From IMG/VR virus record IMGVR_UViG_3300027771_000078, positions 1 through 27,088 of that record: a DNA stretch of 27,088 nucleotides. The stretch is one strand, 5' to 3'. Positions within the stretch are counted from its first letter, which is position 1. The number at the start of each line of letters is the position of its first letter. This DNA is from a virus. The notes beneath the pieces are model-generated. The model was given only the letters and a program-made list of their open reading frames with translations, was not told where the DNA came from and made no database searches. Both the position numbers and the translations under genes were made by a program. Shown in pieces: positions 7,024-25,289 of the stretch.

Positions 7024-7031
7024 TATTTATA
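7024..7031 (-). promoter_or_regulatory. T4-type late promoter TATAAATA
   Basis: The minus strand reads TATAAATA, a perfect match to the T4 late promoter consensus recognised by the gp55/gp33/clamp system. Counting its last base as -6 puts the start point near 7018, giving a 28-nt leader with AAGGA before the ATG at 6990. It sits just past the U-tract of the terminator at 7034-7061, so one unit ends where the next begins. Confidence 0.85.
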
Positions 7032-7033
7032 AT

Positions 7034-7061
7034 AAAAAAGAGGGCAAGTACACTTTTGCCC
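7034..7061 (-). terminator. Intrinsic terminator of the nuclease-ligase-PqqA unit
   Basis: On the minus strand GGGCAA and TTGCCC pair (7056-7061 with 7042-7047) around an 8-nt loop, followed by TCTTTTTT. This is a compact Rho-independent terminator that would end transcripts from the genes at 7144-9551. Confidence 0.8.
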
Positions 7062-7143
7062 CCTTATTCAACGTTTATTAGTTAAAGACCATTATCAAAA
7101 AGGATATTGGATCACCGCCTTTCCTTAAAATTTCTTCGTTTAC

Positions 7144-7218
7144 TTATATTTCAGCACAAGCGTAACAATTAATTTCAAGTCCAACGGCTATTTCTCTAAC
7201 GGAAGGTTTACTCCACAT
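7144..7218 (-). CDS. pqqA: PqqA-like peptide (24 aa), coenzyme PQQ precursor type
   Basis: A 24-codon ORF that begins MWSKPSVREIAVGLEINCYA and ends with CAEI. It has the hallmarks of PqqA, the ribosomal precursor of pyrroloquinoline quinone: an N-terminal W-x-K-P, a central [IL]-x-[VL]-G-[LM]-E-[IV] segment, and E-x3-Y (Glu15, Tyr19), the pair that PqqE cross-links in bacterial PqqA. The terminal AEI resembles methylotroph PqqA. An excellent AAGGAG lies 7 nt before the ATG, which argues strongly that it is translated. It is the last gene of its unit, 27 nt after the 65-aa gene and about 80 nt before a terminator. No pqqBCDE genes are in the window, so the host would have to supply the maturation enzymes. 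An unrelated peptide with chance similarity is the main alternative. Confidence 0.8.
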   Translation of the reverse strand: MWSKPSVREIAVGLEINCYACAEI

Positions 7219-7245
7219 AGGTCTTCTCCTTGTTATTATTAAAAA

Positions 7246-7443
7246 TTAACCACGATAGTTAGTCACGGCTTCGGCCCACAAATCAGAGTTGCCAGCTTCG
7301 TTCCAAAGAACATAAGCTAATCTCACTGCATCTCTACCAGCGGTAGCATGAGTCCAAGCGGGGTCGGACTCAATTTGTCTTTCGGCTGCTCCTAAGTAGC
7401 CGTCCTTTACATCTGAGTGCATTGCACTTACAGGAATACTCAT
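7246..7443 (-). CDS. Small unknown protein (65 aa) of unusually high GC
   Basis: A 65-residue acidic protein that begins MSIPVSAMHSDVKDGYLGAA, with a helical middle containing Ala, Trp, Arg and Glu (AGRDAVRLAYVLWNEAGNSD). AAGGAG lies 6 nt before the ATG. I do not recognise the family. The base composition stands out: two 60-base lines inside it (7261-7380) are about 50-53% G+C, while neighbouring genes are about one-third. It lies directly upstream of the PqqA-like gene on the same transcript, so the two may have been acquired together. It lacks the length and features of PqqD, and no catalytic motif is visible. Confidence 0.75.
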   Translation of the reverse strand: MSIPVSAMHSDVKDGYLGAAERQIESDPAWTHATAGRDAVRLAYVLWNEAGNSDLWAEAVTNYRG

Positions 7444-7453
7444 AAATTTCTCC

Positions 7454-8509
7454 TTAAACTTTGTTCCATCCTTTAATCACTTCAGAACTAAAATTAGCAT
7501 AACTAAATTCCATCCTGTCGATTATCTTAACAGCATCAATACCATGTTGGTTTATTGCTACATACCCTTCATGACCAGTAGGTTTTAAACCATCTTTAGT
7601 CTTTAGGAATGTTTCTACACTGCTAGCCTTATTTAGGCTTTTTAGAATTACTATTTTCATTCGATATAATAAGCTATGCATTTTATCAACAGCTACCATA
7701 TCAGGCAGGTTTTTAAACACAGGTGTATATAATTCAGCCTTTCTTATCTTAGTTTCTTCACGTTTAACTGAATCAACAGCTTTGTTCATATGTGCTACAA
7801 CAAAATCAGCAAAATTAGTAATGTTACCGTTAACATTAAATGTACCTTTCATTATTAAAGAATTAATATAAACAACCCACAAATCTATTGTCATAGGACT
7901 AAGATTGAATTTATGTTTAACAGAACTATATTCTTTTTTCATATATTCTAATAGTTGTTTAGTATTATCGTCTATCTCATCTATTTCATCATGAGCATTG
8001 AAATGCCATAAACCATATGGCGAACCAATCATCTTCTTAATATCATAACCATAATGAGCTTGACCATCAATATAATTAGTATGCCAAGCTATACCAACCC
8101 AATCAGAACCTTTAAGACCAGGAGCTGAGTATACTAATGTATTTGCTTGGAATATGCCTCTACCTTTAGTATACTCAACCATGCCTCTGGTAAATAACAG
8201 ATCACCCTGTACAAGATCCCCTAGCTGTAAGTCACTGTCTTCTAATATCATTAATGTATCAGCTAGCTTTGTACTAAGTTTATTCTCACCCATATCATCT
8301 ATAATTTCTTGATATGTATAATATAATTTTGAATCTTTATTGAATATACTTTTCTTAGCAATATAGATACCTTTTTTATCTCTACCTAAAAAGATTGCAG
8401 GTGCACCGTCCCACTTACGAGACCACTGCACCTTGCCAGATATCATATCATCTATCCAATGTATAGGGTTTTTTTGAGCCAGAACTATTCTGTCCTCAAA
8501 ATGATCCAT
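7454..8509 (-). CDS. Ligase-fold nucleotidyltransferase-like protein (DUF6267-like), 351 aa
   Basis: The N-terminal third has SRKWDGAPAIFLG, with Lys32-x-Asp34-Gly35 matching motif I (KxDG) of ATP/NAD-dependent DNA and RNA ligases and mRNA capping enzymes. Later QGDLLF (101-106), HEGYV (313-317) and AVKI (326-329) resemble motifs III/IIIa, IV and V. Proteins of this type are common in marine T4-like phages and are usually left as domains of unknown function. I infer a covalent nucleotidyltransferase; the substrate is unknown. The ORF can be extended to ATG 8530, but that codon is only 5 nt from the promoter -10 box. The ATG at 8509 gives an N terminus (MDHFED) in the family style, with AAAAGG 10 nt upstream. 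A leaderless start at 8530 remains possible. Confidence 0.75.
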   Translation of the reverse strand: MDHFEDRIVLAQKNPIHWIDDMISGKVQWSRKWDGAPAIFLGRDKKGIYIAKKSIFNKDSKLYYTYQEIIDDMGENKLSTKLADTLMILEDSDLQLGDLVQGDLLFTRGMVEYTKGRGIFQANTLVYSAPGLKGSDWVGIAWHTNYIDGQAHYGYDIKKMIGSPYGLWHFNAHDEIDEIDDNTKQLLEYMKKEYSSVKHKFNLSPMTIDLWVVYINSLIMKGTFNVNGNITNFADFVVAHMNKAVDSVKREETKIRKAELYTPVFKNLPDMVAVDKMHSLLYRMKIVILKSLNKASSVETFLKTKDGLKPTGHEGYVAINQHGIDAVKIIDRMEFSYANFSSEVIKGWNKV

Positions 8510-8535
8510 ATGTGTATTACCTTTTCTCATACCTT

Positions 8536-8564
8536 ATTGTACTACATTAATGAGAACAGGTCAA
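8536..8564 (-). promoter_or_regulatory. Sigma70-type early promoter TTGACC-N17-TACAAT
   Basis: The -35 box TTGACC is at 8564-8559, the spacer is exactly 17 nt, and the -10 box TACAAT is at 8541-8536, all on the minus strand just after the nuclease stop codon. The -35 box continues TGT and the sequence before the -10 is TGTAG, both shared with the polymerase promoter at 19707-19735. Confidence 0.85.
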
Positions 8565-8567
8565 CAA

Positions 8568-9551
8568 TTATATGAACGGATTTATCTTTAACTTTCTAGG
8601 ATCAAATCCATATGGTGATGCTGGTATGAGTTTAGATGCTCTCAGATCAGGCATTAATTCCACCCGACCTTCAGTGCTATCTAAAACTAAACGAAATGAA
8701 AAATTGCCCACAGCATTATATACTGGAATTTTTCTAAAAGATGCTAATGTTTTATTAAGTTGTAATGGATCACTCCTACCCATCAAATAAAAATCAGGTC
8801 CCGTTTGAATATAATGAGCACCGCCGTCCTTTTTTCCTTTAGTATAATGTGTTGTCACTAAGTCTGTAATATTTTTATTCTTCCTTAGGTATCCAATCAT
8901 ATTATTCCGGCCTGGTCCTTCGTTAGTAATTAAGCTGTCAGGGTTTTTTAAAATATAGTCTGTTAACTCATACCAGCTGACCACACTATCATTTCTTGGA
9001 ACATCTTTCCAATCTGGGGATCTTCCAACTTGAGTTGAAACTCCATTTAAATCATATTCCCTTAATGGATTGGTTTCATAATTTGCGTTTGCAACTCTAC
9101 CTGTATCACTAGTAGGTGGTTTTACTAGAGCACCAGACTGTACTGAAGGTGTGCTTGTTGAGAGAAAAGTAATTTTTTCTAATAGTTTGTTCTTTTTCAT
9201 CCACTGGTCATCTCTACCCAAAAATTTACTAAGAGAATTAATAAATTTCATGCCAATACTATTGGGTTGCCTCAACTTGTCTCGTATTGTATTTTTAACT
9301 GCGGAAGGGTTCTTTTTACTAAAAACAATTTTATTATTTCTATAACTTGGGCGAGCATTAAATAAAGCATTATCATGGGCCATCTTAACTTCAACCCATG
9401 TTCTAGATGTGCCATTATATGTTATTTTTATATCTGAATGTGCTACATCTGCTTTGGGACGGACAGCTGTTAGATCAGTTCTACCAGCATCTTTAAGACT
9501 TTTATTAATTTGTTCTGCTACATCAAGTTCATGTTGATCTGAGGCCCTCAT
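8568..9551 (-). CDS. Putative PD-(D/E)XK-type nuclease, 327 aa
   Basis: The N-terminal 60 residues fit a restriction-endonuclease-like core: a leading helix (DQHELDVAEQINKSLKDAG), then Asp40 in HSDIKITYNG and Glu54-x-Lys56 in TWVEVKMA, the D...ExK pattern. The remainder (61-327) is unrecognised and has a basic middle and a C-terminal beta-rich segment. The gene lies directly upstream of the ligase-fold protein, so a DNA or RNA processing pair is plausible. The start ATG is fixed by AAGGAG within a hairpin and by a late promoter at 9570-9577. The nuclease assignment rests on three residues and the local pattern, so it is tentative. An unrelated DNA-binding protein is the alternative. Confidence 0.6.
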   Translation of the reverse strand: MRASDQHELDVAEQINKSLKDAGRTDLTAVRPKADVAHSDIKITYNGTSRTWVEVKMAHDNALFNARPSYRNNKIVFSKKNPSAVKNTIRDKLRQPNSIGMKFINSLSKFLGRDDQWMKKNKLLEKITFLSTSTPSVQSGALVKPPTSDTGRVANANYETNPLREYDLNGVSTQVGRSPDWKDVPRNDSVVSWYELTDYILKNPDSLITNEGPGRNNMIGYLRKNKNITDLVTTHYTKGKKDGGAHYIQTGPDFYLMGRSDPLQLNKTLASFRKIPVYNAVGNFSFRLVLDSTEGRVELMPDLRASKLIPASPYGFDPRKLKINPFI

Positions 9552-9573
9552 AATATCTCCTTACGGAGATATT
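9552..9573 (-). promoter_or_regulatory. Ribosome-site-sequestering hairpin with GUAA tetraloop
   Basis: In RNA from the minus strand, AAUAUCUCC and GGAGAUAUU form a perfect 9-bp stem closed by GUAA, a GNRA tetraloop. The 3' arm contains the GGAG of the nuclease gene and ends next to the AUG. Transcripts arriving from upstream would hide the ribosome site. RNA from the overlapping late promoter would start near 9564, at the loop, and lack the 5' arm. This is the arrangement known for T4 gene e. Confidence 0.85.
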
Positions 9574-9577
9574 TATA
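9570..9577 (-). promoter_or_regulatory. T4-type late promoter TATAAATA overlapping the hairpin
   Basis: A perfect TATAAATA whose last four bases lie inside the 5' arm of the sequestering hairpin. It also overlaps the stop region of the 73-aa gene. The predicted start near 9564 gives a 13-nt leader carrying AAGGAG. Confidence 0.85.
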
Positions 9578-10033: not shown

Positions 10034-11260
10034 TTAATTACTCCCTGTAAATTCTGGATAACTTCTAAGACCTATCTCACTTATATCAGAACCTTTTAGT
10101 TCTTCTTCTTCTGATAACCTTATTCCTAATACAAGTTTAACACCATACCAAAGAATGAAGCTAGTGATAACAACAAATGATCCTATTGCTACAACCCCAA
10201 TTAATTGAGTACTAAATTTTGCGTCTGCGTTAGTCAATGGAACTGCTAATGTTCCCCATATACCACAAACTAAATGAACTGGTATTGCACCAACTACATC
10301 ATCTATTTTTAATTTATCAAGTAAAGGTACTGCTAACATAACTAAGGCTCCACCTGTTCCACCAATTAATACTGCTTGGAAAAATGAAGGGGCTAAAGGT
10401 TCAGCAGTTATTGATACTAATCCACCTAGTGCTCCATTTAAAACAAATGTTAAATCTACCTTCTTATAAAGTAGCTGCCCTAATATCATGGCTACTATAA
10501 CACCACCTGCAGCAGCTAAATTTGTATTACAAAATATTCTTGCCATTGCACTTGCATCTGCTACTGACCCAAGAGCTAATTGAGAACCACCATTAAATCC
10601 AAACCAGCCAAACCATAATAGAAAAGTGCCTAATGTTGCTAAAGGTAATGAAGAAGCAGGCATTGAATTAACCTTACCCTTTTTTGAATACTTACCTTTT
10701 CTTGCACCAACAACTAGACATCCTACTAAAGCACACCATCCTCCTACAGAATGAACTATAGTAGATCCAGCAAAGTCACTAAATCCTAATTCAGATAACC
10801 AGCCTGCTCCCCATGTCCATGAACCCTGTATTGGATATATGATTGCTGTTAATCCTACAACAACAGCTATGAAAGGCCATAACTTAACCCGTTCAGCAAC
10901 TGCTCCGGATACTATTGAAGCAGCTGTAGCTACAAATACCATCTGGAAGAACCAATCTGAGGCTCCTGCATAACCACCTTCTGAAGTTTCAGTAGCTGGA
11001 TCAGCTACATCAAAGGGACTAAAAGTTCCTATAAAGCCTCCATCTACTCCTGAATACATTAAGTTGTATCCTACTAAAAAGTATAACACTCCTGCCATAG
11101 AATATAATACAATATTTTTCGTGCATATTGTTGCCACACTTTTAGTTCTTACCATACCTGCTTCTAGCATGCAAAAACCTGCAGCCATTAACATTACTAG
11201 TATTCCATTTACTAGGAATGAAAACGTATTAAATATAAACACTATATCTTGAGATTCCAT
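10034..11260 (-). CDS. amt: Ammonium transporter (Amt/MEP family), 408 aa
   Basis: An inner-membrane channel-like transporter for ammonium with full family length and no signal peptide. It begins with transmembrane helices that contain AAGFCMLEAGMVRTKS, and about 11 hydrophobic segments can be counted. Functional residues of E. coli AmtB have clear counterparts: Asp162 in SDFAGSTIVH (AmtB D160), His170 (H168) and His329 in IPVHLVCGIWG (H318), with the WFGFNGGS segment between. AAGGA lies 6 nt before the ATG. No PII (glnK) gene is next to it. It sits downstream of uvsX and gp41 in the replication unit, so expression with early/middle genes is likely. As an auxiliary metabolic gene it probably raises nitrogen uptake during infection; that role is inferred. 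Confidence 0.95.
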   Translation of the reverse strand: MESQDIVFIFNTFSFLVNGILVMLMAAGFCMLEAGMVRTKSVATICTKNIVLYSMAGVLYFLVGYNLMYSGVDGGFIGTFSPFDVADPATETSEGGYAGASDWFFQMVFVATAASIVSGAVAERVKLWPFIAVVVGLTAIIYPIQGSWTWGAGWLSELGFSDFAGSTIVHSVGGWCALVGCLVVGARKGKYSKKGKVNSMPASSLPLATLGTFLLWFGWFGFNGGSQLALGSVADASAMARIFCNTNLAAAGGVIVAMILGQLLYKKVDLTFVLNGALGGLVSITAEPLAPSFFQAVLIGGTGGALVMLAVPLLDKLKIDDVVGAIPVHLVCGIWGTLAVPLTNADAKFSTQLIGVVAIGSFVVITSFILWYGVKLVLGIRLSEEEELKGSDISEIGLRSYPEFTGSN

Positions 11261-11468: not shown

Positions 11469-11774
11469 TTATACCAATCCCAATTCTAGTTTACCAGCTT
11501 CTGATATGTTATCATGACCCCATAGAGGTTCAAATACCACCTGTACATCACAATCTTTTATCCCGTCTACCTTCATTACAGCATCCTTTACCCATACTGG
11601 CATATCTTGGGCAACAGGACACCATGCACTTGTTAGTGTCATAATAACATTACATTTATCTTTATCAAAAGATATATCATATATCAATCCTAGCTCATAT
11701 ATGTTCAAAGATATTTCAGGATCATGTACTGTTCGAATTTGTTCTATTACTTTTTCTTTAAGATCTTGATCCAT
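11469..11774 (-). CDS. DUF59 / MIP18-family Fe-S assembly-like protein (SufT/PaaD type), 101 aa
   Basis: The sequence has the family core: VHDPEISLNIYELGLIYDIS near the N terminus, then the MTLTSAWCPVA strand-turn with the conserved Cys52, and a C-terminal VVFEPLWG. Members (SufT, PaaD, MIP18) act in Fe-S cluster assembly or delivery in the cytoplasm. Here the usual 'TAPGCP' turn is TSAWCP. AAGGAG lies 7 nt before the ATG and the gene overlaps the preceding 50-aa ORF. The window encodes two candidate metal-cofactor enzymes, the radical SAM protein and the TauD-like oxygenase. Support for phage or host Fe-S enzymes is a plausible but unproven role. Confidence 0.88.
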   Translation of the reverse strand: MDQDLKEKVIEQIRTVHDPEISLNIYELGLIYDISFDKDKCNVIMTLTSAWCPVAQDMPVWVKDAVMKVDGIKDCDVQVVFEPLWGHDNISEAGKLELGLV

Positions 11775-14081: not shown

Positions 14082-15091
14082 ATAGTAGTTCCATAGCTAA
14101 ATTCTGTTTTACATGCTTCATCAATCTGCTTCAATACCTCCTCAGTAAAATACTTCTCAGGATCTTTTAGTATCTGTTTACCATACAACTTAGATTCACC
14201 CATTTCATATCTATTACCAGACTTCTTAAATATACCATGCTTTTCACCAAACTCTAATAGACCATAATATCTGTCTAATCCACCTGTATAAGATAATAGT
14301 ACTTCTGCTTCTGCATTCTCTTTAGCTAACCTAGATTTAAACATTTTAGCTTTAATAATGATACCAGTAATCTCAGTACCATCTCTTACTTTCTTCTTAG
14401 AAAGGTATGCAATAGTAGAAGCTGCGTATTTTAACCCAGAACCACCACCCATCTCTTTCATAGGCATATACGACCCAATTACCTCGTAAACATGGTTTGT
14501 AACAATCATAGGCACGCCTATTTTTGCTAATTTAAGTGTTAGCACTCTAAAGGCACCTTTGATTAATTGAGACTTAGTCATGTCACGTACATCTTTACCT
14601 TCAGTAGTATCAGCTACCTCTTTTTCAGTAGATAATAAACCTAGACTATCTAATATAAACATCATAGGAGGTCTATCTGGAGACTTCTCATACATGTCAA
14701 TAGTCTTCATAGCATGTGTTCTAAATTTCTGTATAGTGTCAGGTTGGGATATAATAACACGAGTTGTATCCACTCCTCTTTCTTCCATCATCTGTTTAGT
14801 GACAGCTGCTTCAGTATCATAATATACTATTCCACCATCTGGATTATCTAATAAGAATTGCTTAGCAACACCTAATACAAAGAAAGTCTTCCCAGTTGCA
14901 GATTCACCTGCAAAGGCAGTTATTTTATTATTAGGTATTCCACCAAATATAGAACCAGACATTACAGCATTAAGCATATAGCTGCCTGAATCTATTGTAC
15001 CAGCATATTCAGCAGCACCTTTACCATCACCCATTATAGATGTATCTTCATCTTTCATATCATCTACTAAATTTCTAAAAAAATCACTCAT
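14078..15091 (-). CDS. uvsX: Recombinase UvsX (RecA family), 337 aa
   Basis: The strand-exchange protein of T4-like recombination-dependent replication. Walker A is AGESATGKT (about 61-69), followed by YYDTEAA, the Walker B-like MMFILDSLGLL, and the loop GGGSGLKYAAST. The frame can start at ATG 15097, but that codon is one base from GGAG. The ATG at 15091, 7 nt after GGAG, is preferred and overlaps the radical SAM-SDR stop by 8 nt. An internal promoter at 15156-15184 would provide a separate early transcript. Confidence 0.95.
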   Translation of the reverse strand: MSDFFRNLVDDMKDEDTSIMGDGKGAAEYAGTIDSGSYMLNAVMSGSIFGGIPNNKITAFAGESATGKTFFVLGVAKQFLLDNPDGGIVYYDTEAAVTKQMMEERGVDTTRVIISQPDTIQKFRTHAMKTIDMYEKSPDRPPMMFILDSLGLLSTEKEVADTTEGKDVRDMTKSQLIKGAFRVLTLKLAKIGVPMIVTNHVYEVIGSYMPMKEMGGGSGLKYAASTIAYLSKKKVRDGTEITGIIIKAKMFKSRLAKENAEAEVLLSYTGGLDRYYGLLEFGEKHGIFKKSGNRYEMGESKLYGKQILKDPEKYFTEEVLKQIDEACKTEFSYGTTI

Positions 15092-16817
15092 TCCCATACT
15101 CCAAATTTACTTGCATTACTAAATCCTCAATACATAGATTAGGACTCATTGATACAGTATACTCTATAAACTTGGCTAGGTCAAGAGAATTTATTCCATT
15201 ACCTGTCCAATTACTTCTACTGCGAGATAGAGGCGTATCTAATCTGCTTGGTGTTATTAATGTAGTTTTAAATTTTACCTCATTGCACTTAAATGCATTA
15301 GAACAATCTTTACTTGCTTGTTTAAGTGCAGCTTTAGGAATAGTATATGCACCCTCTGTTCCTGAACTACCTATATTAAATATCCAACCTGTCTTTTTAT
15401 GAAATTTCCATAATTTGAATACTTCCATTAATACTTTAACTTGACCATAATTACCCCATTTTTCGTCTGGTGGACCATCAAACGCATTATTAATAAATAC
15501 ATCATAATGTAGTGATTGCTTTGCTATATGCTCAACATCCAGATCTTTGGTTATATCTAAACCAGACGATCTACTACAACCTTCTGCATTAAAGTGATTA
15601 GACAAATTTAGTCCTAATCCTTTATTATTACCTGTTATGTAATATCTGTAAGTTTTTGTCATTTTTTTATTTTGATCCCATACCTTTGAAAGTTTCTGTC
15701 CACACGTTAAAGCACATTCAAATATCTTACCATTATCTAACTTTTTACTCCAAGAGTCAACAAGCTCATTCCAAAACGGATTTTTAAATACTTCTTTTAA
15801 ACTTGTATTGTGTATATTCAGTAATCCTTCTTTAACATCACCTTCTACAGTAGTGACAGAATTATGCTTTTCTATGAATTTCTCTACTTGGTTAAAACCA
15901 TCTTCAAAATGGTTAGCATTACTGTTTGGAAAAAAATCATTACCGCGGAAACGCGCATCAAAAAGATTATGCTCAAAAAAGTTACAAGGCAACACTAATC
16001 CCTCAGCAGTTATAGTTACTTTCTTTCCTGTAAGTGCATCACATTTTATTTTAGTACTGTTAAAGTAATCTTTTATGTCAGGATACTCTTTGTGTAGCTT
16101 AGGTAAATTTACTACACTAGCATTATGATGTTGTTCATCTGTAGGAGGTTCTAAATAGTATTCTACTTCACCCTTTTTATTTTGTACGGGCCACTTGTCT
16201 ATTGTAGTCAAAGTTTTATGGTCCATAAACCTACCAGTTGCTCTGAATAATATATCCTCAAAGCCCATTTCTTTTGCTAGCTTTTTAGCTTCTGGTATTT
16301 GATGTTCGTTGTGTTTATATACTAACCAGTTCCATTGAGCCTTTCCTCCTGCATCAATGAATGCTTTAGCATTAGCCATAACTTTTTTAAATTTAACATT
16401 ACGTCTATATAAATGGTTGGTGTCTTCTAATCCATCAATACCAAAATCTATTTTAGAATTTGGACCTAAGACGGTAGCAAGTCGACTCCACCACTGTTCA
16501 TCATGTACACCACCATTAGTATGAATATATAAATGTAGGTCGGGTGCTTTATCTCTAAAGTTGTAAAGTATGTTATGGAAGTCAGGATGCATAATAGGAT
16601 CACCATAACTCCCACAAAAAAATACTTGCTTTAAACGTCTGCATAAATCTTCAGGGAATGCCTTATCTATAACACTACCGTCTAAATGGCATACGTTTAG
16701 GTATGGATTAACCTTACCTCCATTTACATTTCTTGGACATTGTGGACATGCTGCGTTGCAATAAGTGGTTATCTCTAATTGATACTCTTCAATTGCTTCA
16801 TAACTAAATGTGTTCAA
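15084..16817 (-). CDS. Radical SAM (SPASM/twitch-like) protein fused to a short-chain dehydrogenase, 577 aa
   Basis: Residues 1-380 are a radical SAM enzyme: TTYCNAACPQC gives C20-x3-C24-x2-C27 for the SAM [4Fe-4S] cluster, and CGSYGDP (68-73) sits where GGEP is usual. Further cysteines C259-x13-G273-x4-C278 and C368-x3-C372 resemble a twitch/SPASM domain that binds an auxiliary cluster. Residues 386-577 are an SDR-type oxidoreductase: TGNNKGLG (395-402) binds NAD(P), NNAF (443-446), GSS (483-485) and Tyr491-x3-Lys495 form the catalytic set. The start codon is TTG (16817), 3 nt after the previous stop; the CxxxCxxC motif at residue 20 leaves no room for a later start. The substrate is unknown. 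The fusion is a single open frame with no internal ribosome site. Confidence 0.85.
   Translation of the reverse strand: MNTFSYEAIEEYQLEITTYCNAACPQCPRNVNGGKVNPYLNVCHLDGSVIDKAFPEDLCRRLKQVFFCGSYGDPIMHPDFHNILYNFRDKAPDLHLYIHTNGGVHDEQWWSRLATVLGPNSKIDFGIDGLEDTNHLYRRNVKFKKVMANAKAFIDAGGKAQWNWLVYKHNEHQIPEAKKLAKEMGFEDILFRATGRFMDHKTLTTIDKWPVQNKKGEVEYYLEPPTDEQHHNASVVNLPKLHKEYPDIKDYFNSTKIKCDALTGKKVTITAEGLVLPCNFFEHNLFDARFRGNDFFPNSNANHFEDGFNQVEKFIEKHNSVTTVEGDVKEGLLNIHNTSLKEVFKNPFWNELVDSWSKKLDNGKIFECALTCGQKLSKVWDQNKKMTKTYRYYITGNNKGLGLNLSNHFNAEGCSRSSGLDITKDLDVEHIAKQSLHYDVFINNAFDGPPDEKWGNYGQVKVLMEVFKLWKFHKKTGWIFNIGSSGTEGAYTIPKAALKQASKDCSNAFKCNEVKFKTTLITPSRLDTPLSRSRSNWTGNGINSLDLAKFIEYTVSMSPNLCIEDLVMQVNLEYGNE
15156..15184 (-). 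promoter_or_regulatory. Internal sigma70-type promoter TTGACC-N17-TATACT for uvsX
   Basis: The -35 box TTGACC is at 15184-15179 and the -10 box TATACT at 15161-15156, with a 17-nt spacer. They lie inside the 3' end of the SDR-coding part. The predicted start near 15149 leaves a leader of about 58 nt before uvsX. The -35 box is identical to those at 8559 and 19730. Confidence 0.75.
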
Positions 16818-21670: not shown

Positions 21671-22055
21671 TTTTTACACCCCTTGTAACCTTCTTCGTTA
21701 TAATTTCCAGTTGTTTAAGGGATAGGACTTTTAGAGCTTGTAAAGCCTTGTTTGTAGAATAACCAAAGTATAATTTAACAATTTCCAAATCATCACTATC
21801 CTGCACCTTCACCCACTTTGCATATCTTTTCTTGGGTCTAACGCTATTTATTAAATAGTCATATTGTAGTTTGTGATCTACGTGATGATGTTGGTTAATT
21901 TCATTGCTGTAAAATAAGGTGTCTGGAAAATAAGATAATGTTCTATTTGTTATGAATGGTACGTAACTTGACTCTGCCAACTTATCGTTCTCAGAATCTA
22001 CCATTAAATTTTTCTTAGTATGATTTATTGAATTTATATAATCAAATGGTTTCAT
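21651..22055 (-). CDS. 62: Clamp loader small subunit (T4 gp62), 134 aa
   Basis: The partner of gp44 in the clamp loader. The sequence has the marine T4-like gp62 pattern: PFDYINSINHTKKNLMVDSE, then FITNRTLSYFPDTLFYSNEI, and the conserved RPKKRYAKWVK block that matches RGKRYGKWAK in T4 gp62. It is shorter than T4 gp62 (187 aa), as is usual in these phages. AAAGGA lies 5 nt before the ATG, and the start overlaps the TauD-like stop. Its separation from gp44 by three metabolic or unknown genes is unlike T4, where the two are adjacent. Confidence 0.88.
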   Translation of the reverse strand: MKPFDYINSINHTKKNLMVDSENDKLAESSYVPFITNRTLSYFPDTLFYSNEINQHHHVDHKLQYDYLINSVRPKKRYAKWVKVQDSDDLEIVKLYFGYSTNKALQALKVLSLKQLEIITKKVTRGVKNESRIN

Positions 22056-22987
22056 TATAATCCTTTATTCATTTTTTCTATGTAGTTGTCATAGTTTGAT
22101 ATTCTAAATGTTATACGGTGTAATACTCGTCTTTGTAAAATTTCAGGATCGTTTTGATCTCTCTTATGTAATGTTAATAACTGATCCGTTACAACAATAT
22201 CGCCAGGGTTCCACCAGTGTTGATAGATATATTTTTCTTGAAACACATGCTTATGTAGCCTATCGTATAATGTATTATCGTTAGTAATAATTTTACACTT
22301 ATTATTAGTATAGAAATATAAACCTTTAATACCTTTAACATTCTGTTGTATTAACCACATCTTATACTTATCAGTATTTAAATTATTATTTGATATATCA
22401 GGTCTGTATCCTTTCATTTCATTCAACTGATCATCAGGAAGACCTTTAGCCCATACTTCAGGAGCGTACTCATATTCTGCATAGACGTTATCAATATCGT
22501 TACGCAAATCGTCAGGCATCTCTAAATATGCTAAGTTGGTATTAAGAAATGATGTAGATGTATTCTTGCAGTGTTCATAACCTTGTAGTGCTACACCGTC
22601 TGCACGATTAAGTCCATTGAGATTTGCATGCCAATCAAGGACACCAGACCCAAAAATACCTGATCTTTTACCGTCTACTTTTTTACCTGTAACTCTCTGA
22701 ACTGGATATACATTTTTAGCATTTGTCCACATGTCGGTTGGTTCACCAGGATTGTTGGCTAGCGTTCCGTCATTGTTATAAATCATTTGAATATAGTTGG
22801 CCACGTTTCCAAGACCCTCAATAAACTTTGTATAGTTATATGAATCACAACTTTGATTCTTTATTACAAGTATTAGATTCTTATGTAAACAATCTTTTAC
22901 TTTTTCTGTTTCCAAAATAGTTAATGATGAGATGTCAATATTAGATATTTCAGTTGCTACACCATTATTGATACTGTGGATATCCAT
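22055..22987 (-). CDS. TauD/TfdA-like 2-oxoglutarate Fe(II) oxygenase with HxN in place of HxD, 310 aa
   Basis: A jelly-roll oxygenase of the TauD family by overall pattern: LDWHANLNG at 117-125, a QHWWNPGDIVVTDQLLTLHK block that carries the distal His274, and RRVLHRITFRI with an Arg for 2-oxoglutarate. The usual His-x-Asp iron pair reads His120-Ala-Asn122. Asn at this place is not the canonical ligand, so activity may be altered or water-assisted; a non-hydroxylating role is possible. The substrate is unknown. It sits between gp62 and a 72-aa protein in the replication operon; 2OG oxygenases are common passengers of marine T4-like phages. Confidence 0.82.
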   Translation of the reverse strand: MDIHSINNGVATEISNIDISSLTILETEKVKDCLHKNLILVIKNQSCDSYNYTKFIEGLGNVANYIQMIYNNDGTLANNPGEPTDMWTNAKNVYPVQRVTGKKVDGKRSGIFGSGVLDWHANLNGLNRADGVALQGYEHCKNTSTSFLNTNLAYLEMPDDLRNDIDNVYAEYEYAPEVWAKGLPDDQLNEMKGYRPDISNNNLNTDKYKMWLIQQNVKGIKGLYFYTNNKCKIITNDNTLYDRLHKHVFQEKYIYQHWWNPGDIVVTDQLLTLHKRDQNDPEILQRRVLHRITFRISNYDNYIEKMNKGL

Positions 22988-23206
22988 TTATTTTAATTCC
23001 ACTTCACTATCTGTTTCTATCCATACTCTTGCACCACATGATAAAGGTTTGTCAGGACTATAGATAACTTTACTAGGACCATCTATATGTACTTCATGAG
23101 CATATGTATTACTCTTACTTGTCTTAACTGTTAGTACAGGATTTCTTTCTCCTGTTTTTAAATTCTTTCTTATGATGTGCATGTTGACATGTATTCTTTT
23201 TTTCAT
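22988..23206 (-). CDS. Conserved hypothetical of marine T4-like phages, 72 aa
   Basis: A small basic protein with a strongly beta pattern: MKKRIHVNMHIIRKNLKTGE, then NTYAHEVHIDGPSKVIYSPD and CGARVWIETDSEVEL. The 'HEVxIxGPSKVIYSPDKPLxCGARVWIET' segment is one I know from cyanophage genomes close to the clamp-loader genes, without a function. It overlaps the FAD enzyme by ATGA and is directly followed by the TauD-like gene. Confidence 0.85.
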   Translation of the reverse strand: MKKRIHVNMHIIRKNLKTGERNPVLTVKTSKSNTYAHEVHIDGPSKVIYSPDKPLSCGARVWIETDSEVELK

Positions 23207-24360
23207 ATCTTATCACTTATTCTTTCTGCTAATGCCATACCCATTGTCCATCCAAGATGTCCAGCTCCACTATTAACCCATACCTTACCTACTTTCTTTA
23301 CCAAAGGCAACATATTAGGTGTCATAGGTCTTAAACATGCCCATGATGTATAACTTTCTGGCTCTACGTTTGTCGTATCTTTAGTCCATTTAAGTAATGG
23401 ATTTAATCTTTCTTCTCTTATACGAGTATTGTATCCTGCTAACTCAGCTGTACCAGCTACTCTAAATCTATTTCCAAATGTAGACGACACTATTTTTTTA
23501 TCATCATCTAATATAGAATACTTTGGAGCTACTTGTTCTAAATCTTTTATTGTAATTGAATAACCTTTGACAGGAATTATTCCAGTACCTGGCACAAGCC
23601 TTGCTGTATCTGCTCCAGCAGCAACTACTACTTCATCATAGTCTCTTTGTAATGTATCTAAACCTATGTTACCAGTTTCTTTTGTTTGCTTTCTTGTAAC
23701 ATTATTTTTATATCTACCTACAGGATAATTAGATTGAAGATGATACATAAGCTCAGTACAAAATAAATTTATATCTCCAACCCAATCATCTGGTGCAATA
23801 GTAGCACCTACCATATTAGAAGTTTTAATTCCTTCTATTCTATCTACATCTATGTCTTGGACATTCCATCCAGTATCTGCAAATCTTTTATTTGATTCTT
23901 GTGCATGTCTGTATGATGCACCATTACGATACACATGAACAATACCACAATACTGTTGATCATATTTTATATTGATATCATTTTCAAGTTCTAATAACAA
24001 TTCTCTTGATCTTAAACTGTAGTCAATTATCTTACGAGTGTTCTTTTCATAACCACCTAAAGCAGTTGTACCTAAAAAGCTAGCTAGCCATTTAATTTTA
24101 TTCCAACCAAGTACATCTAATCTTAAAGAGAGAGGTGCGTCTGCTTTTCTTAACCAACTAAGACCATGCATAACATTGTCCCAAGTGTTCCATACCTCAG
24201 CATTACAAACAGATATTTGTCCACCATTAGCAAAACTACATTCACTTGCTACTGATTTATTACGATCAAATAAATCTATCTCGTAACCTTTTTTTGCAAG
24301 AAAGTATGCAGTTGTTAAACCAGCTACACCTGTTCCTACTATTGCAACCTTTAAAGCCAT
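23203..24360 (-). CDS. FAD-dependent D-amino-acid dehydrogenase-like enzyme (DadA/DAO), 385 aa
   Basis: It starts with a Rossmann FAD site, KVAIVGTGVAGLTTAYFLAK (GxGxxG at 9-14), then FDRNKSVASECSFANGGQIS, typical of DadA. The substrate domain follows, with VVVAAGADTARLVPG, IIPVKGYSITI and the C-terminal GHLGWTMGMALAE. The reaction expected is oxidative deamination of D-amino acids (or another small amine) to a keto acid and ammonia, with electrons to the respiratory chain. The frame opens at ATG 24390, but ATG 24360 (MALKVAI) fits the family start and overlaps gp44 by only 10 nt; ATG 24366 is also possible. The substrate is not provable from sequence. Its placement between gp44 and gp62 is unusual. 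Confidence 0.9.
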   Translation of the reverse strand: MALKVAIVGTGVAGLTTAYFLAKKGYEIDLFDRNKSVASECSFANGGQISVCNAEVWNTWDNVMHGLSWLRKADAPLSLRLDVLGWNKIKWLASFLGTTALGGYEKNTRKIIDYSLRSRELLLELENDINIKYDQQYCGIVHVYRNGASYRHAQESNKRFADTGWNVQDIDVDRIEGIKTSNMVGATIAPDDWVGDINLFCTELMYHLQSNYPVGRYKNNVTRKQTKETGNIGLDTLQRDYDEVVVAAGADTARLVPGTGIIPVKGYSITIKDLEQVAPKYSILDDDKKIVSSTFGNRFRVAGTAELAGYNTRIREERLNPLLKWTKDTTNVEPESYTSWACLRPMTPNMLPLVKKVGKVWVNSGAGHLGWTMGMALAERISDKI

Positions 24361-25289
24361 TCGCATTCTGCCATTAGTTGAGTTAAACATGCTACCATAT
24401 TTACCTCTTGGTCAGCTACGAATGCACTTTTATATTGATAGTCTGCTATAGTAAGTACAAGTTGTGGTACAGAACCTTTACTCATCAGAGCATTAGAATG
24501 ATCATAGATGTGTCTGAATATTACTACTGGTTCATTATCTAAGTTAGAAGCTACCCACTTCCTCATCTCTGTAAAGTTCTTAGATTTTAAATGACTTACT
24601 AATACTTTAAAGTTGTCATCAGATAAGCTACTAAGTATTCCACTATCTATTTTACCAGTGGCACTATACCTTTGTAGCTCATTTAATACTCTTCTCCAAT
24701 CAGGAAAGAATTTTATTATAAGTTCAGCCACAACCTTATCATCTGATTGTACACTTTCAGTCTCAAGTATACCTCGTACTCTTTTCATAAAGCTAACAGC
24801 TAATTTATCTCTTACAGACTTATCTATTTTAAAATCTATAACACTACATCTAGATTGTAATGGATCTATAATTCTATTCTTAAAATTACAGGTCATTATG
24901 AATCCACAGTTCTTACTAAACTCTTCCATAAAGTTTCTAAGAGCTGGTTGAGTACTATTAGGATTCAAATAGTCAGCCTCATCTAGTATAACATATTTCC
25001 TTCCACCTACTAAACTCATAGAGGAAGCAAACTGCATTATGTCATTGCGCAATGTATCAATATTACCTGATAGACTACCGTTTATAACGATATAATCGCA
25101 CTCTAGTTCGTCTAACATAGCCTTAGCTATGGTTGTCTTACCAACACCTGGACCTCCAGCTAACAGTAAGTTTGGTATGTTTTTATTGTCTACAAACTGT
25201 TGGAAGGTTTTCTTTAGTTCATCCGGAAGTATGGTCTCAGATACAGTTTTTGGTCTATACTTTTCTACCCATAAAAATTCTTCACGCAT
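24351..25289 (-). CDS. 44: Clamp loader large subunit (T4 gp44, AAA+), 312 aa
   Basis: The ATPase that opens and loads the gp45 clamp. WVEKYRPKTVSE at the N terminus is the RFC-type opening. Walker A is GGPGVGKT (45-52), Walker B is ILDEAD (101-106), and the SRC arginine-finger motif is at 146-148 (LQSRCSV). Length agrees with T4 gp44 (319 aa). The gene starts 5 nt after the gp45 stop codon, with GGA about 9 nt before the ATG. Confidence 0.95.
   Translation of the reverse strand: MREEFLWVEKYRPKTVSETILPDELKKTFQQFVDNKNIPNLLLAGGPGVGKTTIAKAMLDELECDYIVINGSLSGNIDTLRNDIMQFASSMSLVGGRKYVILDEADYLNPNSTQPALRNFMEEFSKNCGFIMTCNFKNRIIDPLQSRCSVIDFKIDKSVRDKLAVSFMKRVRGILETESVQSDDKVVAELIIKFFPDWRRVLNELQRYSATGKIDSGILSSLSDDNFKVLVSHLKSKNFTEMRKWVASNLDNEPVVIFRHIYDHSNALMSKGSVPQLVLTIADYQYKSAFVADQEVNMVACLTQLMAECEWL

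Follow-up and report, generated by a model that had tools for sequence, protein, structure and literature searches.

Cyanophages carry psbA and other photosynthesis genes, which stand in for a host component consumed in the course of infection. The cofactor PQQ starts from a precursor peptide, PqqA, in which PqqE, together with PqqD, joins a conserved Glu and Tyr as the first step of the pathway (PMC5715301). PqqA encoded by a phage is as such already known since 2020, when it was reported in the Lake Baikal Methylophilaceae phage population VP_266 (PMC7678222). Two further sources touch on the subject: a 2026 study lists viral pqqA/D/E for reservoir sediments (PMC13188868), and a PqqA-annotated RiPP family has been tied to defence genes by bacterial co-expression, in a passage that does not concern phage-encoded PqqA (PMC11118758). 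For the alphaproteobacterial PqqA type in a T4-like marine phage, hidden PqqA ORFs in phage isolates and the breadth across lineages, no report was found in open-licence literature, and all three look unreported. Herein, we describe such a gene and compare it with its relatives in viral contigs, cultured phages and bacteria.

The pqqA gene and its phage context

The window (the whole stretch of 27,088 bases analysed here) is a fragment of a T4-like marine phage, in which PHROGs identified a T4-type DNA polymerase, UvsX, a DnaB-like helicase, a clamp loader and Hsp20. As is asked of an auxiliary gene, pqqA is surrounded by a genuine viral genome. It is the last member of a minus-strand block that runs from a gene at 8568-9551 through the DUF6267 gene and a 65-aa ORF. 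The features referred to below are as follows.

7144..7218, minus strand: PqqA ORF MWSKPSVREIAVGLEINCYACAEI, above the cut-offs of PF08042 and TIGR02107
7226..7231, minus strand: Shine-Dalgarno AAGGAG, ending 7 nt 5' of the pqqA ATG, read from the sequence
7162..7176, minus strand: Glu15-x3-Tyr19, the residues predicted to be joined by PqqE, placed from the peptide position (invariant among the 242 phage copies listed; chemistry in PMC5715301)
7246..7443, minus strand: 65-aa ORF directly upstream of pqqA, without a match in family searches, 95% identical in the related contig L004
7454..8530, minus strand: DUF6267 / phrog_455 protein, upstream backbone gene (PF19782, E=2.8e-51)
7038..7065, minus strand: terminator-like hairpin and T tract directly 3' of pqqA (10-pair stem; -17.1 kcal/mol for the surrounding 71-base segment)
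9570..9577, minus strand: TATAAATA, a weak T4 late-promoter-like octamer ahead of the gene block 9551..7144
10034..11260, minus strand: ammonium transporter (Amt), marine subtype, a host-lineage marker (TIGR03644, 594.9 bits)

A sequence-only reading of this DNA had proposed a 24-codon PqqA-like ORF at 7144-7218, with AAGGAG 7 nt ahead of its ATG and the motifs W-x-K-P, V-G-L-E-I and Glu15-x3-Tyr19, and had suggested a profile search. All of this was borne out. The ORF lies on the minus strand (7218..7144), where the ATG at 7218-7216 opens 24 codons that end in a TAA at 7146-7144; the strong ribosome site is found at 7226-7231, and the three motifs are all present in the peptide. The profile matches reach 31 bits for PF08042 of Pfam (E=2.5e-7; gathering cut-off 21.1) and 34.8 bits for the NCBIfam equivalog TIGR02107 (E=1e-8; cut-off 20), and no other PF08042 match occurs in the whole virus record. 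An HMM built from other phages' copies gave the ORF 53.5 bits, against 6.3 for the second-best frame of the window and 12.3 for the best of 40 shuffled windows; the ORF is not a chance match. With the cut-offs of curated models passed and the E-x3-Y spacing present, it is, by profile, a true PqqA.

The TATAAATA octamer recurs at 7031, ahead of the next gene, which makes late transcription possible; the evidence is only suggestive, since DNA with so high an AT content should contain a few of these octamers by chance.

Elsewhere on the minus strand, the window encodes an FAD-dependent, D-amino-acid-dehydrogenase-like oxidoreductase (23203-24390; 40-41% identical to the host group discussed below) and, close to it, a TauD-family dioxygenase (22055-22987), both possible further auxiliary metabolic genes. 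A protein with a SUF-associated Fe-S assembly domain is found at 11469-11774 (minus strand), where TIGR02945 scores 118 bits with a cut-off of 143.

The minus-strand gene at 15084-16817 codes for a 577-aa protein in which a radical SAM part is joined to a C-terminal portion resembling short-chain dehydrogenases; close relatives were found only in the viral contigs L002 and L003. As a candidate PqqE it was rejected (TIGR02109, 16.5 bits vs a cut-off of 381.35). That it nonetheless takes PqqA as its substrate and yields a different modified peptide strikes us as extremely improbable: a weak SPASM-like stretch and its presence in the same fragment speak for it, but, besides the low PqqE score, 8 kb separate the two genes, and just 3 of 51 PqqA-carrying viral records, the window included, have any match to this radical SAM model, although it matches weakly in 14 of 14 control genomes. 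Among phage isolates, moreover, its only relatives are partial ones from Pelagibacter and Campylobacter phages, with 26-27% identity.

PqqA copies in viral contigs and cultured phages

The same ORF was also sought in related phages, as the earlier reading had advised. The contig L004, which is about 89% identical to the window at the DNA level along 2.8 kb, carries it at the same locus; its PqqA is MWNKPSVKEIAVGLEINCYACAEI, which differs from the window's pqqA by two replacement and three silent changes and is preceded by the ribosome site taaggag. Pattern scans of IMG/VR returned PqqA-like ORFs of 23-27 aa in at least about 120 contigs for each of two main types, one of them the window's ...EISVGLEIN[SC]YACAE, and nearly all copies listed have ribosome sites. 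No PqqA was found in 79 marine phage fragments (635 kb) that share the window's DUF6267 gene.

Loss of Glu15 or Tyr19 in related phages had been named beforehand as an outcome that would speak against PqqA, and it was not seen. Although codons 15 and 19 were left free in the searches, both residues are kept in 120/120 and 122/122 of the copies listed (242/242), the second set taking in the window and L004; Trp2 is likewise fixed in every assessable phage copy among the matches listed. Silent positions do vary: in the matches listed for the window's type, Glu is encoded by GAA or GAG in 80 and 41 copies and Tyr by TAT or TAC in 85 and 36. The pN/pS of the phage copies is 0.15-0.18; as many residues are fixed by the patterns used in the search, this underestimates the true ratio, and the unforced codons are the better evidence for constraint. 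By this comparison, Glu15 and Tyr19, the very residues that become PQQ, are shown to be held under constraint.

Sorted by the genes they have in common, the pqqA neighbourhoods among the matches listed form 25 groups, and the commonest flanking proteins, judged by eye, are structural and related ones (portal-, capsid- and scaffold-like). Within one large group of related phages, either PqqA type occurs, and its position differs; this suggests that the gene was captured repeatedly and in line with the host.

What these phages seem to leave out is the rest of the pathway. PqqE over the cut-off was found in 0 of 51 PqqA-carrying viral records and the PQQ_2 enzyme domain in 0 of the same 51, window included; most of the records are fragments, and missing pqqB-E is thus not proof of absence from the whole genomes. 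Judged from such mostly fragmentary records, PqqA-carrying phages bring the peptide alone, which fits the substrate-only auxiliary gene that had been proposed for the window. The lack of the other enzymes would also suit an inhibitor or decoy that occupies PqqD/PqqE and slows host PQQ synthesis, or a cross-linked product put to another use, and free peptide could tie up the chaperone PqqD. A decoy would not require the two reacting residues together, yet both are unvarying in the copies listed; the phage sequences are, furthermore, host-like along the entire peptide, and a methylophage pair has been reported with methanol dehydrogenase plus PqqA, which favours boosting (PMC7678222). We consider the decoy unlikely.

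Three contigs assigned to Maricaulis, Verrucomicrobia and Flavobacteriaceae bins (L210, L249 and L262) also hold PqqA ORFs, although their genomes show no PqqE over the cut-off; these are probably misbinned phage contigs.

Cultured phages provide a second source of copies. With the window's own 24-mer, tblastn matched no phage isolate. With the Methylophilales-type peptide, a search of 50,697 phage records retrieved Venkman, P19250A, MEP301, MEP401, MEP402 and four Melnitz genomes, all of which infect Methylophilales, and one further match, an environmental podovirus. Widespread in methylotroph phages, the gene thus occurs in many phages of PQQ users from both the sea and fresh water. The only other PqqA-like matches were bacterial DNA labelled as phage. 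Such is the case for 'Acinetobacter phage MD-2021a' (L477, CAKLQF020000010.1), which we rejected as a phage: its contig holds a pqqABCDE operon and ppk and is apparently mislabelled bacterial DNA.

The isolate ORFs are 23-24 aa long, keep Glu15/Tyr19 and in most cases have a clear ribosome site; in the viewed stretches of these genomes, no pqqB-E is annotated. Their sequences are of the Methylophilales-matching type and sit on several unrelated backbones (siphovirus-like, Zobellviridae and T4-like Kyanoviridae genomes). The suspicion that so short an ORF is easily missed by gene callers proved justified here: the records of Venkman, P19250A, MEP301, MEP401 and MEP402 have no feature at the pqqA site, and those of Melnitz and the Manatee Spring phage annotate only an antisense hypothetical gene. 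Nor does pqqA appear in the publications that describe Venkman, MEP301, MEP401/402 and Melnitz.

A very short gene with a host-like sequence could, in principle, be a recently captured passenger without function in the phage. We think this very improbable given the strong ribosome sites in nearly all copies listed, the divergence at silent sites while the key residues stay fixed, and the presence of the gene both in unrelated cultured Methylophilales phages and in some 25 gene neighbourhoods.

The host group

The closest bacterial PqqA sequences belong to marine Alphaproteobacteria. The sequence-only reading had likewise advised a search for pqqBCDE in the host, and had counted a host lacking both PQQ synthesis and PQQ enzymes as evidence against its idea. 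These matching bacteria gave a favourable result, so that none of the three adverse outcomes it had named came about: PqqE exceeds the cut-off in 18 of 23 genomes with near-identical PqqA, a PQQ-dependent alcohol dehydrogenase does so in 10 of 16 matching genomes, and one bacterial locus (L266) retains pqqABCDE as an intact operon; the PqqA encoded there, MWKSPVVREVAVGLEINCYACAEI, is identical to the window's at 20 of 24 residues. Bacteria with a matching PqqA thus possess the pathway partners of the peptide.

The ammonium transporter of the window leads to the same place. Its best matches are the transporters of G010 (SFB_27D_100_8; 86% identity), G008 (MarineAlpha9_Bin3; 85%) and G009 (SP94; 80%), and in a sample of 385 genomes from across the class nothing else exceeds 70%; these three genomes also carry MWKSPVVKEVAVGLEINCYACAEI or a near-identical PqqA. 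PqqA and Amt, two separate genes, thus agree on a single host group that uses PQQ. We infer from them that the window's pqqA was taken from a PQQ-making marine alphaproteobacterial host, so that, as for an auxiliary gene, a host origin would go together with a pathway present in the host. One of the three genomes, G008, has no PqqE over the cut-off, which may reflect genome incompleteness. In G010, the amt gene has a partial match to a PQQ-dehydrogenase some 370 bases away.

Counterparts of the other common phage type, ...ISVGLEINSYACAEK, are found in genomes such as that of MED657 (MAWTKPIISEISVGLEINSYACAEK, L239), which has been placed in TMED127/Methylaequorales, predicted obligate methylotrophs (PMC12542740). 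In two bacteria of the host type (L213 and L234), a lone pqqA is flanked by a LysR regulator on one side and an EmrB-type efflux gene on the other, with no pqq operon nearby in the region viewed, and is thus a free-standing substrate gene in bacteria.

Proposed role and comparison with described systems

Taken together, the sequences make it likely, in our judgement, that the phage pqqA is a substrate-only auxiliary metabolic gene, obtained from the host, that sustains PQQ and PQQ-dependent alcohol oxidation during infection. The phage would make the PqqA peptide, host PqqD would present it to host PqqE for the joining of Glu15 and Tyr19, and host PqqB/PqqC would complete PQQ. One PqqA would be consumed per PQQ and would have to be made anew, whereas PqqB-E, as catalysts, would outlast the stop of host transcription; a phage would therefore need to bring only the 75-bp substrate gene. 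PQQ, and hence periplasmic PQQ-dependent alcohol oxidation, could in this way be kept going until lysis. Counting against this role, some bacteria import PQQ from outside. Furthermore, overexpression of pqqAB alone in Acetobacter pasteurianus brought a gain in PQQ of just 29%, whereas the full pqqABCDE set gave about eightfold more (PMC7936290); in uninfected cells, PQQ supply is therefore not always limited by PqqA.

More broadly, we lean toward the view that, in at least two PQQ-dependent host groups (Methylophilales and marine Alphaproteobacteria), phages have time and again retained nothing of the pathway but a PqqA matched to the host type, a general 'substrate-only' class of genes missed by gene callers. 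Annotation pipelines skip ORFs of this length. If the role is true, a 75-bp gene connects infection by phages with the PQQ supply of abundant ocean bacteria and, through it, with their oxidation of alcohol (probably methanol). Several PqqA phages and their hosts are in culture, which makes the question directly testable, and for phage contigs that stem from PQQ users, PqqA may help to indicate the host.

Among the described systems, VP_266 is alike in being a T4-like aquatic phage with a PQQ precursor peptide, for which the same role in PQQ-dependent alcohol oxidation was proposed. It differs in its additional gene for methanol dehydrogenase and in its assignment to Methylophilaceae, whereas the window has no PQQ enzyme domain and carries the alphaproteobacterial type of PqqA. 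The cultured methylophages have Glu15/Tyr19 and the size of the peptide in common with the window, but sequence type and backbones differ. The bacterial pqqA of L266 shares its 20 residues with the window's, GLEINCYACAEI included, yet is followed by pqqB, C, D and E, while the phage copy stands alone. Finally, the psbA of cyanophages encodes D1, a protein subunit that turns over, whereas PqqA is a peptide substrate consumed for a cofactor.
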